A program made the position numbers and the translations under genes. A model generated the notes under the pieces. It ran no database searches, had not been told where the DNA came from, and saw only the letters and a list, made by a program, of their open reading frames with translations. From IMG/VR virus record IMGVR_UViG_3300046751_001172, positions 1 to 27,648 of that record: DNA of 27,648 bases; one strand, written 5' to 3'. Shown one piece after another: positions 5,020-25,592 of the stretch (positions are counted from its first letter, which is position 1; each line of letters begins with the position of its first letter). The DNA is from a virus.

Positions 5020-6098
5020 TCTGCTGTTACTGACTTAGCTTTTGCTTTCTGAAACATTACCTGCTCAAGGCGCTGACGTAGGTCTTTGCGAGCTTGAGCC
5101 TTTCCCTGTTTCGTAAATTCCGCCCAGATGGTAACCAAGTCGGGTTCGCTAATTTTGACTGCTTGTAGAAATTCCTTAACAGGCAAATTCGAGCCAAATA
5201 GAATTTCTGCCGCACCTGCAGCATCAAAGGAAGTAGTTGATCCAGTGTTCCTAAGCTTATATCCAGGAACATCAACCCCAGCTTCAAGACGGCTCTTAGT
5301 AGCAGATTTAACACTTTTGCCGAAACGTTCGATAAGGCCAACAAGCCCCATCTTTTCAGCCAATTCGTCATTTGAAATATTATCCATATCAATCTCTTTA
5401 GTTTCATTTTTTAAGTATTCGAAAGCTGTTGGACAGTGAGCCAACGCTTTGCAGTATTTACATTGTTTAGGGCCGGCAGTTTCCTCTGCTTCTTCGTCTT
5501 CTACTTTAATAGATAACTCCCTTATCAATCCCTTGAGGATTATTCCTAAGTCACGATGCATTATACCTGTGGTGCATTTACCAAGGGCAGGTTGTAGCAA
5601 CGCTAGCTGAATCTGTTGAACTTCGGGATAATTCTCAAATACGAGCATGGCATACACTTGAAGCTGTTTATTCCGATGAGCCTCCTCGTAATTGCCATAC
5701 AGCATTTTGTAGTCAAGAATGGAGGCATCCTCTCCGTCAATCTCGAGCCTATCGATCTGACCAGAGAGGATGCCCAACTCATCCTTTTCGTCCTTGAGCC
5801 ACAACCTAGGCTCGCGACTAACACTACCCTTTAACCCAAATTTCTTGGTTACAATGTCTTCCATTCTACGGCATTCCTGTATGATGAAACGCTCGTTGTT
5901 ATCAATGATTTCATCAAGAGGCACTCCGTCTTCCATGTAGGAATGAAGTTGAGTTCCTGCGGAAGCATCGGAAGTGTCGTAATCCTTAAACTTCTGGGAT
6001 GCCTTGAATCTCGCAAGGCAGAGCATATTTTCATAAACGGAGCTACCAGACATTTTGGTAACGCCGTTCCATGCTCGCTCGTCTCTTTTTACTGCCAT
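5016..6098 (-). CDS. PD-(D/E)XK nuclease, Cas4/AddB-like with probable Fe-S cluster (DUF2800-like)
   Basis: A 360-aa protein. Nuclease core features are a His in GTQLHSYMEDG (H52), GQIDRLE (D116), ILDYKMLYG (D129 and K131) and KQLQVYAML (Q145, Y149), the order expected of RecB/Cas4-type enzymes. Cys27 (SSVYENMLCLARF) together with Cys213, Cys216 and Cys222 (QCKYCKALAHCP) forms the one-plus-three cysteine arrangement that binds a 4Fe-4S cluster in Cas4 and AddB. The layout matches phage DUF2800-type proteins. The last 130 residues are a helical extension. It is likely the exonuclease that makes ssDNA for the adjacent Rad52-like annealase. The start overlaps the annealase stop by 10 bases. Confidence 0.8.
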   Translation of the reverse strand: MAVKRDERAWNGVTKMSGSSVYENMLCLARFKASQKFKDYDTSDASAGTQLHSYMEDGVPLDEIIDNNERFIIQECRRMEDIVTKKFGLKGSVSREPRLWLKDEKDELGILSGQIDRLEIDGEDASILDYKMLYGNYEEAHRNKQLQVYAMLVFENYPEVQQIQLALLQPALGKCTTGIMHRDLGIILKGLIRELSIKVEDEEAEETAGPKQCKYCKALAHCPTAFEYLKNETKEIDMDNISNDELAEKMGLVGLIERFGKSVKSATKSRLEAGVDVPGYKLRNTGSTTSFDAAGAAEILFGSNLPVKEFLQAVKISEPDLVTIWAEFTKQGKAQARKDLRQRLEQVMFQKAKAKSVTAE

Positions 6099-6565
6099 CC
6101 TTCTAAGTTTGCGCTTTTCTCACCTGAGATGTCTTTTGGTAAAGCCCACTTAGGCAACTGAGGTGGATTCTTTATCTTGCGATACTGATCAATTTCAACC
6201 CATTTTGCTGGCAAATAATAAAGGTATCTTCCGATTCCCCATTTAACTGCTGCTCTTTTGAACGCATCTGAAATAGCACCCTTTTCACCTTCGACGTTGG
6301 TGTCACCCGCACCATCGGTTTTCCCAATCCATTCACCATCGATTCGAACTTTAAGGGTACAAATTAATCTTCCACTAGCAGTTTCTGCATAGCAGTCTTT
6401 CCAGTTTTCCATTCCAATAACCTCGTCAAGACGTTTCATGACATCTCTAGCATTAAGGTAGGCTAGGGCAGTTCCCTTAGATTTATCTTTGGTTGTCGAT
6501 CCGACTCGCCAATGGACTGCATTGGCTGGAAAAGGATTTTTTAGTTTAGTCTCAATATCACTCAT
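6089..6565 (-). CDS. Rad52/Rad22-like single-strand annealing protein
   Basis: A 158-aa protein. Motifs LAYLNARDVMKRLDEVIGMENWKD (about residues 34-57) and GAGDTNVEGEKGAISDAFKRAAVKWGIGRYLY (85-116) are characteristic of the Rad52/Rad22 DNA-annealing domain, including the Gly-rich turn and the K-RAAVKWGIGRYLY helix. Phage members promote RecA-independent annealing of complementary strands. The ATG overlaps the stop of the upstream HTH gene (ATGA). It lies in one operon with a candidate exonuclease and a resolvase. Confidence 0.88.
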   Translation of the reverse strand: MSDIETKLKNPFPANAVHWRVGSTTKDKSKGTALAYLNARDVMKRLDEVIGMENWKDCYAETASGRLICTLKVRIDGEWIGKTDGAGDTNVEGEKGAISDAFKRAAVKWGIGRYLYYLPAKWVEIDQYRKIKNPPQLPKWALPKDISGEKSANLEGWQ

Positions 6566-6774
6566 ATAATTTCTTCCATTACGGTTAATGCCTCAATCTC
6601 TGACTTGAGGACGCGTTTATTTCTGCTGAAAGGCGTTTTGAAAGCACGAAGCTTTTTTGCCTTAATCAGTTCGTTTACAGAACGGAATGAGTCGAACTTC
6701 AAAATCCTAGCTGCTTCGCTAAGACTCAGAGTTTCGGCCAATCTCACCTGTTTTCCACACACTTTTTCACTCAT
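6562..6774 (-). CDS. Small HTH protein (MerR/excisionase-like), first early gene
   Basis: A 70-aa basic protein. The segment LSLSEAARILKFDSFRSVNELIKAKKLRAFKTPFSRNKRVLKSEIEAL follows the helix-turn-helix plus wing plan of MerR-like and excisionase-family DNA-binding proteins (HTH_17 type). It is the promoter-proximal gene of the leftward operon, next to the divergent switch region. It could be the excisionase, a Cro-like early regulator, or both; the sequence cannot separate these. Confidence 0.7.
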   Translation of the reverse strand: MSEKVCGKQVRLAETLSLSEAARILKFDSFRSVNELIKAKKLRAFKTPFSRNKRVLKSEIEALTVMEEII

Positions 6775-7778: not shown

Positions 7779-8699
7779 CTACGGGATTAGCCGGAAGTAT
7801 TTTTCAGCATCTTTTGCATTTGCAGAAGATTCGCAATAGTGGCGATGGAAAGTTTTATAATTAGAATGTCCAGTGTATCGCATGGTCATTTCCATCCCCA
7901 TTTTGAAATATGCATAAGTGCAAAATGTGTGCCTCATAGCATCATGTGCAATGTTTCCAAAATATCTTCTGCGAGCCAATCTGTAAGCATTGTAAGAAGA
8001 GTCTGGTAATGGATATTTCTTTAGCCATTTTATTAAATTTGGAGGCAAATCATGAAGCACTCTCGTGCGCCTAAGCTTCGAATATTCCCCAAGCAAATAC
8101 AGCTTTTTTCCTTGTAAATCTAAATCCTTACTTTGGATTTTCAAGGATTCATAGGGTCGGATTCCTGCAAATAACTGCAACGCAGTTCGAGCTTTGAATC
8201 GATCAGGCATAACATTTAGCAGTTTCTGAGCTTGTTCTACTGACAAAATATCAATTGGATTCTCATCTTGTAAAACTTCCATAAGCTTAATTTTGTAAAA
8301 TTGACCCTCCTTAATCCATCCCATTTGCCCACACCAATTCAAAAATACGCACACATCATTGCGATGACCGACTCTTGACCATCTCCCTGAGAAAGATTCA
8401 GCAAAAGTTTTTACATCTTTCCGAGATATTTCATCTAACTTTTTATCGCCAATCCATGTGATAAAGGCAGAAACTCGCTGTCGCATGGTCACTAAAGAAG
8501 TCTTGCGCAAGTTGCGTTGAGCGCATGCATGCTGGTACATGCGGTGAGCTTTGTCAGGTGCAGGAAGCCTCCCTAAGTCATTCTTTGATACTAAGTTAGG
8601 CTTGGTGGGAGATGGCAGATTCGAACTGCCGACCTCATGCGTGTCATGCATGCCTGGTAACGCCTTCTTAGTCAATGTTTTAAGTATTTTTTTGATCAT
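7779..8699 (-). CDS. int: Tyrosine-family site-specific integrase
   Basis: The 306-aa ORF has the full tyrosine-recombinase set: Arg181 (FAGIRPYESL), Lys208 (EYSKLRRTR), His252 and Arg256 (HDAMRHTF), His278 (TGHSN) and the nucleophile Tyr288 (HRHYCES). A SAM-like core-binding domain spans about residues 52-125 (MYQHACAQRNLRKTSLVTMRQRVSAFITWIG...). No clear arm-binding domain is seen. Residues 16-33 are encoded by the tRNA-Val-like attP segment. AGG lies five bases upstream of the ATG at 8699, so this start is plausible in the free phage; Met17 (inside the tRNA segment) and Met54 are alternatives, especially after integration. It converges with the 7187-7546 gene and diverges from 8762. Confidence 0.9.
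   Translation of the reverse strand: MIKKILKTLTKKALPGMHDTHEVGSSNLPSPTKPNLVSKNDLGRLPAPDKAHRMYQHACAQRNLRKTSLVTMRQRVSAFITWIGDKKLDEISRKDVKTFAESFSGRWSRVGHRNDVCVFLNWCGQMGWIKEGQFYKIKLMEVLQDENPIDILSVEQAQKLLNVMPDRFKARTALQLFAGIRPYESLKIQSKDLDLQGKKLYLLGEYSKLRRTRVLHDLPPNLIKWLKKYPLPDSSYNAYRLARRRYFGNIAHDAMRHTFCTYAYFKMGMEMTMRYTGHSNYKTFHRHYCESSANAKDAEKYFRLIP
8603..8653 (-). other. attP: Probable attP core: 3' portion of a tRNA-Val(GAC) gene
   Basis: On the minus strand this segment reads as tRNA positions 26 to 76. It has a perfect 5-bp anticodon stem (CATGC/GCATG), loop ATGACAC with U33 and anticodon GAC, a 5-base variable loop, a perfect T-arm (GGCAG-TTCGAAT-CTGCC), the 3' acceptor strand ATCTCCC, discriminator A and encoded CCA. 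The preceding bases do not form a D-arm or the matching GGGAGAT acceptor strand, so this is not a complete tRNA gene. Tyrosine integrases commonly use such segments as the core that restores the host tRNA on integration. Phage genes flank it on both sides, so it is attP rather than attL or attR. Confidence 0.82.
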
Positions 8700-8729
8700 T
8701 GTTACCTATATTTTATGTTTACACTTGAA

Positions 8730-8748
8730 GAATCACAGAGAGTGATTC
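8730..8748. promoter_or_regulatory. 19-bp palindrome, candidate operator
   Basis: GAATCAC-AGAGA-GTGATTC has perfect 7-base arms and sits between the divergent integrase (start 8699) and rightward (start 8762) genes. The arms and 5-base spacer fit a dimeric HTH-repressor site. It could instead form a hairpin in an integrase leader transcript, but no T-run follows. Confidence 0.5.
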
Positions 8749-15810: not shown

Positions 15811-15832
15811 GTAACCAAATTAACTAAGTTAC
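15811..15832 (+). promoter_or_regulatory. GTAACC...GTTAC leader element before major capsid gene
   Basis: GTAAC (15811-15815) and GTTAC (15828-15832) form an inverted repeat ending eight A/T-rich bases before the capsid ATG. No Shine-Dalgarno is present despite presumed high expression. It resembles the element at 11519-11540. Confidence 0.4.
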
Positions 15833-15840
15833 AAATTATT

Positions 15841-17724
15841 ATGGCAAACGAAATATCAAATTCAGGACAATTTACTACTTCTGGGTATCAGAACACAGCA
15901 ATGGCGCAACCTACTGCGTCTTCGCCAAGTTCCTTAATTCCTGGATCACAAGGTTCGGGTTATGACGCCCTACCTCGTATTATTAAAGTCGATAGCTCTA
16001 CGGGCTGCACCTTAACTAAGGCACACATCAAAGGTTTAACACCTGGTGAGTTCGAAGCACTTGGTAACAAGGAAATCGACCTAGCAAGAGTTATTGCATC
16101 TGCTGCTGAAGCCAAAACCCTTGGGGTTGAAGAACGTGGACTTACCACTCTTCTTACTTCTTCCGTGCAGAACATCAAGCCATTGATCAATAAGCAAAAT
16201 ATTGCTGAGCAATCAATCATCTTGCCATACATTCAGCGCAGACAACGCTCTGTTATCAATGCAAACTATTTTGCCATTGAGGGCGGTTCAAGTGCTTCAG
16301 GTTCTGATGCCTATGATCCTTCTTACACTAATAAAGCTGGTGATTATAAAATAACCGTTAATTTGGGTGGCTCTGATTGGGTAACTCCTATTGGCAACAT
16401 CGAACGTTACTTCCTTCCTGGTGGATATGTTATTGTTAACCACTGGACAAGTGGAGGAGCAGTTGTAGAGGTTCAGTTCATGATCGTTGGTGCTACCAAC
16501 GCTGATGGTGCTAACTCTGGCAACACGGGAACAATTGCTAAAGCTGAAGTTATTCTTCGCCCAACTGGTAAAGAAGTTCCAGCAAGTGCTAGTTTCTCTA
16601 CGCTTCCGGCGCCTGAGCAAGCTAAATTCGCACCTACCGCAGGTATTCTTCAAACCATTGCCAACAACATCAACGACTATGAGTCATGGTGCAGAAATCA
16701 ACCAACCGACATGAGCGTTCGCTTACTTGTCAACTGGTTGCAAACCACTCGTGAATCTCGTGAGGTCAACGATAGCTACAAGAAAACTCTTGAGCAAATC
16801 ATGTCTGGCAAGGTTAATCCTTATCTTTCTTCCATGGTCTACCAACCATTGGCTGAGCAAAACAAAATTGCTTCCAAGGTTTCCCAAGATCAATGGAATC
16901 GTGCTGTATGGTACAACCAAGCACTCAGCGATGCTCAGAAGCCTGAGACTTACATGCAGTTACCTGGCGTTGCTGACCCAGAAGACACCAACTGCACACT
17001 CGAGTACAAAGCCAACGCGCTTGGTATCAAGAGTCTTCTTCGTGAAGGTGGTCGTATTAAGGACAATGGCGGAAACGCTCTTGATCTTGATTCCTTGTTC
17101 TCTGACTTGTACTTCCTCAAGCGTAACCGTGAGCAGGACGGAGACACCATTTCGGTGATCGACGTAATGACCGACCGTTTGACCGCAGTCAAAATCTTCG
17201 AGGCATTCAACTCCTACTACAAACTCCGTTACGGATGGGAGACTCAGCGTAATGCTAATATCAATCAGACGATTGAGCATAACGGGATTATTCTCTTCAA
17301 CTACAACGTTTACGACATCCCTGATGTTGGAGTTCAGTTGGCTGTCTTCCATGACCCAATGTTCGATGACCTCCTTAATGTTGGTTCTGGTCAGAAGTAC
17401 CTTATTGATGGCACACGCTCTGGCGATGATGTCTTCAGCGGAGGAGATGCTTCCAAGTTCACCTCAACTCATCGTATGCTTTGGCTCGTTGATTGGAGTG
17501 ACGTTAAGATCGGAATCGCTGGCACTAACAGCGTTACACGAACACAGCCTCATCCAGAAGTTGATCGTCTTTACAGCTGCCGTATGGACTCGGTGAAACG
17601 TACCTTCAATCTTCGTTCCACAAAATGGACTACGATGATGGATCGTCCACACCGTCACCTTATCTTGGAAAACATTTCCGATTCGGTACAGTTCACATTG
17701 GGTGGCACGACCCACTCATTCTGA
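15841..17724 (+). CDS. Probable major capsid protein
   Basis: A 627-aa protein directly after the scaffold gene and followed by a strong terminator. It has a Gly/Ser/Thr-rich N-terminus, a beta-rich middle (VNLGGSDWVTPIGNIERYFLPGGYVIVNHW) and a long C-terminal region with SVIDVMTDRLTAVKIFEAFNSYYKLRYG. The gene is the most C-ending and CGT/CGC-biased in the window, as expected for the most abundant virion protein. The family is not recognised directly; an HK97-type fold is assumed from the class of phage. A major tail or decoration protein is less likely given its size and order. Confidence 0.75.
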   Translation: MANEISNSGQFTTSGYQNTAMAQPTASSPSSLIPGSQGSGYDALPRIIKVDSSTGCTLTKAHIKGLTPGEFEALGNKEIDLARVIASAAEAKTLGVEERGLTTLLTSSVQNIKPLINKQNIAEQSIILPYIQRRQRSVINANYFAIEGGSSASGSDAYDPSYTNKAGDYKITVNLGGSDWVTPIGNIERYFLPGGYVIVNHWTSGGAVVEVQFMIVGATNADGANSGNTGTIAKAEVILRPTGKEVPASASFSTLPAPEQAKFAPTAGILQTIANNINDYESWCRNQPTDMSVRLLVNWLQTTRESREVNDSYKKTLEQIMSGKVNPYLSSMVYQPLAEQNKIASKVSQDQWNRAVWYNQALSDAQKPETYMQLPGVADPEDTNCTLEYKANALGIKSLLREGGRIKDNGGNALDLDSLFSDLYFLKRNREQDGDTISVIDVMTDRLTAVKIFEAFNSYYKLRYGWETQRNANINQTIEHNGIILFNYNVYDIPDVGVQLAVFHDPMFDDLLNVGSGQKYLIDGTRSGDDVFSGGDASKFTSTHRMLWLVDWSDVKIGIAGTNSVTRTQPHPEVDRLYSCRMDSVKRTFNLRSTKWTTMMDRPHRHLILENISDSVQFTLGGTTHSF

Positions 17725-25314: not shown

Positions 25315-25337
25315 GTTACATATATAAATAGGTTACA
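25315..25337 (+). promoter_or_regulatory. Direct repeat GTTACA-N11-GTTACA before fibre cassette
   Basis: GTTACA at 25315-25320 and 25332-25337 lies in the short gap before the ATG at 25347, nine bases from it. The box also precedes the genes at 11550 and 15841. Confidence 0.35.
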
Positions 25338-25346
25338 ATATACGAG

Positions 25347-25592
25347 ATGCAGAATATACTCACAGAGATAGGCAGAAGGCTTGCACAAGTTAAGAAGCAA
25401 ATAGCCGATAAGACTCTGCTGAGTTTATTAGATGTAAACCCGAACCCAGTTAACCTAGGTGTACTCCAGTACAACAGTCTTACGAACCAATGGATTGCAG
25501 AGCCTCCCGAATTGATCGGGGCTGTAATAGATGGTGGCGTTGCGGACACCGTACACTTGGAGGCATTGGATATCGATGGAGGAGGAGCATAA
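25347..25592 (+). CDS. Small tail fibre or adaptor protein
   Basis: An 81-aa protein. The N-terminal helix MQNILTEIGRRLAQVKKQI matches the beginnings of the two later fibre genes (25853 and 26779). It is followed by LLDVNPNPVNLGVLQYNSLTNQWIAEPPEL, resembling the L-D-V...G-x-LxYxxxxxxW module common in phage fibres. It probably attaches to the tail through the N-terminal helix. The stop overlaps the next ATG (TAATG). Confidence 0.6.
   Translation: MQNILTEIGRRLAQVKKQIADKTLLSLLDVNPNPVNLGVLQYNSLTNQWIAEPPELIGAVIDGGVADTVHLEALDIDGGGA

Follow-up and report, generated by a model that had tools for sequence, protein, structure and literature searches.

The window, by which we mean the whole 27,648-nucleotide stretch of viral DNA analyzed here, probably contains an attP site lodged within the 5' coding part of an arm-less tyrosine integrase gene, in a temperate phage that infects marine Opitutia. 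Integration at this site would detach the integrase body from its own start codon, and this self-disconnection would serve to control the direction of recombination. We assign a probability of roughly 0.6 to this reading taken as a whole, the shut-off of the integrase and the control of direction included.

At its longest, exact identity between the window and a host tRNA-Val(GAC) gene spans 51 nt; it runs from position 8653 to 8603 on the minus strand and corresponds to tRNA nucleotides 27–77, from the anticodon stem to the CCA inclusive. The initial annotation, made from the DNA sequence of the window, had equated a 51-base tRNA-Val(GAC) segment with residues 16–33 of the integrase open reading frame (ORF), and exact alignment shows its coordinates and residue numbers to be right: the core is in frame within the ORF at 7779–8699, beginning with base 2 of codon 16 and ending with base 1 of codon 33. 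The stretch that it named as the core, 8597–8699, does contain the core but is slightly larger than the actual 8603–8653. ARAGORN detected no intact tRNA in the window, and Rfam returned only a sub-threshold tRNA match there (20.4 bits), as expected because the core is half a tRNA. The segment had also been supposed to belong to an intact bacterial tRNA-Val(GAC) gene. A scan of genome contigs recovered the exact 46-nt core in 13 marine Opitutia genomes, each time within an intact tRNA-Val(GAC), and the same 46 nt are exact in 20 viral stretches. As a sequence match, an exact agreement over 46–51 nt is far beyond chance; the intact core-bearing tRNA genes point to marine Opitutia (Verrucomicrobiota) as the host group. 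Phage and host are alike in G+C content (about 42% and 37–49%, respectively). Identity between them ends just 5' of the anticodon loop in all lineages; by analogy with the usual practice of tyrosine integrases, the crossover probably takes place at this loop.

Table 1. Features of the attP–integrase region and of the neighboring genes (positions in the window).
Feature	Position	Strand	Evidence or remark
Rad52/Rad22-family protein	6089–6565	-	Near SSB, RusA and a DUF2800/PD-(D/E)XK protein
HTH_17 protein, possibly Xis- or AlpA-like	6562–6774	-	Heads a leftward operon; also present in sister phages
Tyrosine integrase ORF, 306 aa, attP core in 5' end	7779–8699	-	PHROG 1 integrase, E 3.7e-16
Catalytic domain	7782–8240	-	Pfam PF00589, sub-threshold, residues 152–229; AlphaFold model
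Core-binding (SAM-like) domain, starting near residue 48, and linker	8241–8558	-	AlphaFold model; Pfam SAM_1/SAM_4 in close relative L037
attP core	8603–8653	-	Exact match to tRNA-Val(GAC) nt 27–77 over 51 nt; part of residues 16–33
Anticodon loop ATGACAC, presumed 7-bp crossover region	8641–8647	-	Sequence; anticodon-stem inverted repeats on either side
Phage-specific N-terminal extension, residues 1–16, presumably cut from the int body on integration	8652–8699	-	Start codon kept in 5/5 lineages
Motif TAGGTAACA, clade consensus TARGTWACA	8700–8708	-	Directly before int start codon; kept in all lineages
Hairpin GAATCACAGAGAGTGATTC	8730–8748	.	Sister phages have a counterpart at this position
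Divergent small ORF, 71 aa	8762–8977	+	Related ORF in sister phage L104

In the ORF, residues R181, K208, H252, R256, H278 and Y288 are conserved in 11/11 aligned relatives, and the window integrase thus possesses the full catalytic set of the tyrosine recombinases (R, K, H/R, H and the nucleophile Y); judged by these residues, the integrase body left behind the tRNA could thus act if made. An AlphaFold model predicts residues 1–42 of the clade integrase to be disordered, with the fold starting at the core-binding domain. Residues 2–16 are under weak purifying selection (pN/pS 0.87) and the integrase body is strongly constrained (0.24–0.33); the extension may therefore have no role other than that of a leader. 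The start codon is invariant across the five lineages of the clade described below, while the codons after it have diverged, with a mean difference of 52% over the last 42 nt of this stretch; by a rough rate estimate, three invariant columns would arise by chance with a probability of about 0.002. Potential starts downstream of the core differ by lineage (GTG46, TTG38, ATG54 or none). In L012, no ATG, GTG or TTG (nor ATT, ATC or ATA) occurs from the core to residue 65–68, well within the core-binding domain, and translation there must therefore begin at or before the core. We also considered the tRNA-coded residues as a conserved integrase domain and rejected this, given that relatives lack them and that it is the tRNA which dictates their sequence.

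The same in-frame layout is present in 12 further phage contigs, with integrases 65–97% identical, and in a truncated contig that starts inside the core (L050). It is shown by 12 of the 20 core-bearing viral stretches together with L037, some of these contigs being near-identical and one possibly representing the window's own phage. The core of the clade always reads HDTHEVGSSNLPSPT in the integrase frame, the start codon lies 15–16 codons upstream of it, and insertions and deletions between the start and the core-binding domain comprise whole codons only. The integrases with this layout form five lineages, 65–100% identical to the window integrase. In the phylogeny, they constitute a single branch nested among arm-domain integrases with a support of 100/100 (92/99 with the core-binding and catalytic domains only; the root placement rests on distant rows). 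All five lineages descend from one origin and do not constitute independent tests. L037 (CALIKS010000040.1) is a phage contig of the clade that was binned in a metagenome-assembled genome (MAG) labeled ‘uncultured archaeon’, likely a mixed bin. Among known phages, we found no portal relative, the att region had no match at the DNA level, and the integrase matched one Helicobacter phage only, at 27% identity.

How this layout could have arisen is indicated by a group of sister phages (L005/L055, L009/L053, L020/L051 and L104) that carry four integrase types (L051, L053, L055 and L104), about 40–47% identical to the window integrase. They are syntenic with the window phage, with TerL 71–75% and portal about 75% identical, and with the same gene order and module position. 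They also share its tRNA core (a close variant in L104); in the sisters, however, the core lies outside coding sequence, and the start of int follows about 180 nt downstream. The sister core is flanked on both sides by arm-type repeats, TTTGACAAT, or AACGCCACC in L104, and a beta-beta-beta-alpha fold, as is usual for arm-binding domains, is predicted at the N-terminus of the L053 integrase. Near the core of the window clade, no arm-type repeats were seen. From the core to the NLR landmark codon, the distance is 127–139 nt in the window clade versus 411 nt in the sisters, which brings core and core-binding domain nearer to each other by about 275 nt in the window clade. Judging from sequence and structural models, the window-clade integrase looks arm-less, with arm repeats and arm-binding domain both gone; the initial annotation missed this loss, which accompanies the layout. 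The layout probably goes back to a single deletion of about 275 nt that took away the P' arm sites along with the old start codon and the arm-binding domain, with a new integrase start acquired on the far side of the core. One such deletion would account for both the loss of the arms and the approach of the core to the core-binding domain.

Host and phage sequences were joined at the core in silico to yield attL and attR; both are constructed rather than observed because no integrated member was found. In the constructed attL, the tRNA-Val is followed at once by the integrase body, with the frame open from a TAG in the tRNA D-arm. The first start is then AUG 17, supplied by the host tRNA within its anticodon stem and base-paired in the folded tRNA; after integration, it is the only start common to all lineages. 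The constructed attR retains the phage start and the core, which run into host DNA to give a stub of 34–71 amino acids. These products support the proposal of the initial annotation that integration restores the tRNA and leaves the int body directly downstream of it, in the same orientation and without the phage start. Of the two internal starts that it named, Met17 within the tRNA segment is common to all lineages, and Met54 is absent in 2/5. It had further anticipated that the tRNA-encoded part would not be conserved in integrases that use other att sites, and indeed related integrases in elements beside other tRNAs (for example Phe, Gly and another Val) are without this stretch.

Taken together, a model for the life of this integrase emerges. 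In the free phage, translation of the integrase would start at ATG 8699 and continue without a break across the core derived from the tRNA. It would then recombine the core with the host tRNA-Val(GAC), probably at the anticodon loop, restoring the tRNA and bringing the int body, with its core-binding and catalytic domains, directly behind the tRNA in the same orientation and without the phage start. The upstream phage region, the start codon and the first 16 codons would come to lie at the opposite prophage end and encode a stub only. In the lysogen, integrase synthesis should stop or drop to the level of tRNA read-through. Upstream of ATG 8699, we found no sigma-70-like promoter, and we therefore only infer that a promoter is lost upon integration. 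The usual setters of direction, an arm-binding domain and arm-type sites, are missing, and self-disconnection is thus the likely control of direction. More tentatively, and at somewhat less than even odds, we propose a bacterial, independently evolved ‘suicidal’ integrase: one deletion of the arm sites and arm-binding domain would have forced the start beyond attP, integration would turn the integrase off, and excision would need either a tRNA read-through message translated from the anticodon-stem AUG or the integrase of a second infecting phage.

A different account does without the shut-off: the lysogen would transcribe int from the tRNA promoter and translate it from AUG 17 into a fully active integrase of 290 amino acids, the layout merely swapping one promoter for another. 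Every constructed attL is open from the D-arm TAG and AUG 17 arrives with the host tRNA; furthermore, the core-binding and catalytic domains are intact, and residues 1–42 look dispensable in the structural model. However, AUG 17 is paired in the anticodon stem and has no clear Shine-Dalgarno sequence, tRNA end processing is expected to sever the message behind the CCA, and the starts farther downstream are unconserved. We regard this account as unlikely, while giving it more weight than the two that follow.

Conventional control of an ordinary temperate integration is a poorer candidate still. Here, the overlap would be a by-product of compaction, and direction would be set by a recombination directionality factor (RDF), for example the HTH_17 protein. 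That gene persists in both the window clade and the sisters, and an RDF may therefore exist in the window phage; a tRNA just upstream of int is also common in this integrase family, and relatives in host genomes often display a tRNA–spacer–int order at other tRNAs (Phe, Val and Gly). On the other hand, Xis accompanied only recombinases with an arm-binding domain in a large survey of integrative and conjugative elements (PMC8138268), and arm-like repeats were not seen near the window core. Least probable of all is that the integrase starts downstream of the core and that the upstream open frame is accidental, so that attP adjoins the gene instead of lying inside it. The predicted disorder of residues 1–42, a pN/pS near 0.9 for residues 2–16, and initiation past the core in sister and host-genome relatives would all suit such a start. 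Against it stand the L012 integrase, which has no usable start from the core to residue 65–68, the lineage-specific placement of the candidates elsewhere, the whole-codon insertions and deletions from the start to the core-binding domain, and the conservation of ATG 1 and of the motif upstream of it.

Integrated copies were sought in several ways. An int profile revealed no prophage of the clade in 373 genomes of the order and 42 genomes of the family, and no integrated copy around host tRNA-Val loci. The core scan of genome contigs led to the 13 intact tRNAs and to a single phage contig, located in a MAG, but to no attR; viral contigs with a rebuilt tRNA numbered 0/20. In two Opitutia genomes, 5' halves of the same tRNA-Val, 44–46 nt long, were observed (L141, G153 C13:1132–1177; L142, G215 C78:44–87), which run into unrelated DNA and not into the normal 3' half; in G153, the half is followed by an integrase-like ORF of 491 amino acids. 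These look like other elements that break the same tRNA-Val at the anticodon arm, in systems distinct from that of the window.

Several elements surround the integrase. The hairpin upstream of int folds far better than shuffled sequences (z -5.4). In both phage groups, it occupies a constant position in the interval from attP to the divergent small ORF; its arms differ in sequence among lineages and still appear to pair (window, L104, L053, L055 and L051). The initial annotation had counted this palindrome among the integrase elements lost on integration, a view that is probably not right, as the sisters have a similar hairpin at the same place, next to the divergent small ORF. It is probably no int switch element because the sisters keep a counterpart even though their int starts beyond the core; from its position, it more likely belongs to the divergent ORF. 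The TARGTWACA motif occurs three times in the window, at 8700–8708 (-), 15825–15833 (+) and 25329–25337 (+), each time just upstream of an ORF start (int, a 627-aa ORF at 15841 and the ORF at 25347), and it may be an expression signal of the phage. The Rad52/Rad22 gene and its SSB, RusA and DUF2800/PD-(D/E)XK neighbors make up a phage recombination module.

Among known systems, the archaeal ‘suicidal’ integrases (SSV1, pTN3 and pT26-2) were called exclusively archaeal in a 2021 review, where they are marked by Pfam PF16795 and proposed to provide a substitute for an RDF, with strand exchange at SSV1 attB located at the anticodon loop (PMC8371274). The window system shares with them an att of tRNA origin within int, and a division in which the parts lost upon integration lie N-terminal to a catalytic piece that can sit behind the tRNA. 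It differs in that the window integrase is without PF16795 (Phage_integr_3), Pfam giving PF00589 and SAM-like domains only, and in that the loss amounts to 16 phage codons and tRNA-coded residues, no known domain being cut; the counterpart of the archaeal int(N)/int(C) split is known here from joined sequences alone. In mycobacteriophages with integration-dependent immunity (BPs, Brujita and Weirdo19ES), attP lies within a gene, and the integrase is arm-less, with neither arm sites nor an evident RDF (PMC9262239, PMC7194413). The window phage is like them in having attP in coding sequence, a tRNA attB, and an integrase devoid of arm-binding domain and arm sites, such that recombination rewrites a gene; Brujita integrase (5vfz) is also among the fold matches of the window integrase. 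Their attP, however, is in the repressor gene, from which integration removes a C-terminal degradation tag, whereas in the window attP is in int, and the N-terminus and start are removed. An HTH_17 gene, which may or may not encode an RDF, is present in the window phage.

The Myxococcus phage Mx8 is likewise a bacterial phage with attP within int, and integration alters its int gene; there, int receives a new 3' end, and its product remains an active enzyme whose specificity is altered (PMC6070905). In the window, it is the 5' end that would be exchanged because the core lies at codons 16–33. That attP is spanned by the integrases of Mx8 and SSV had been remarked by the Islander authors (PMC4383910). 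Matches between tRNA genes and att sites have served earlier to assign hosts to phages of marine Verrucomicrobia, apparently without a description of an attP-in-int layout (PMC3861242). A search of the open-licence literature for bacterial phages with attP in the 5' portion of int yielded only Mx8, at the 3' end, and the archaeal cases. A further comparison is with the sister phages, which have the same backbone, the host tRNA-Val core and a homologous integrase, and differ by a non-coding core, arm repeats, a predicted arm-binding domain and a start downstream. By analogy, the window clade would work like the archaeal suicidal integrases and the Brujita-type systems, and it is a member of neither.

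The loss of the arms and the move of attP into a coding gene occur together both here and in the mycobacteriophages, in different genes. Since sisters with an ancestral-looking layout are available, the evolutionary step can be read, and the idea that an integrase losing arm control needs recombination itself as a direction switch becomes testable in related phage pairs. If true, the window clade would provide a bacterial counterpart of the suicidal integrases, with the same kind of geometry, in contrast to the claim that these are exclusively archaeal (PMC8371274).
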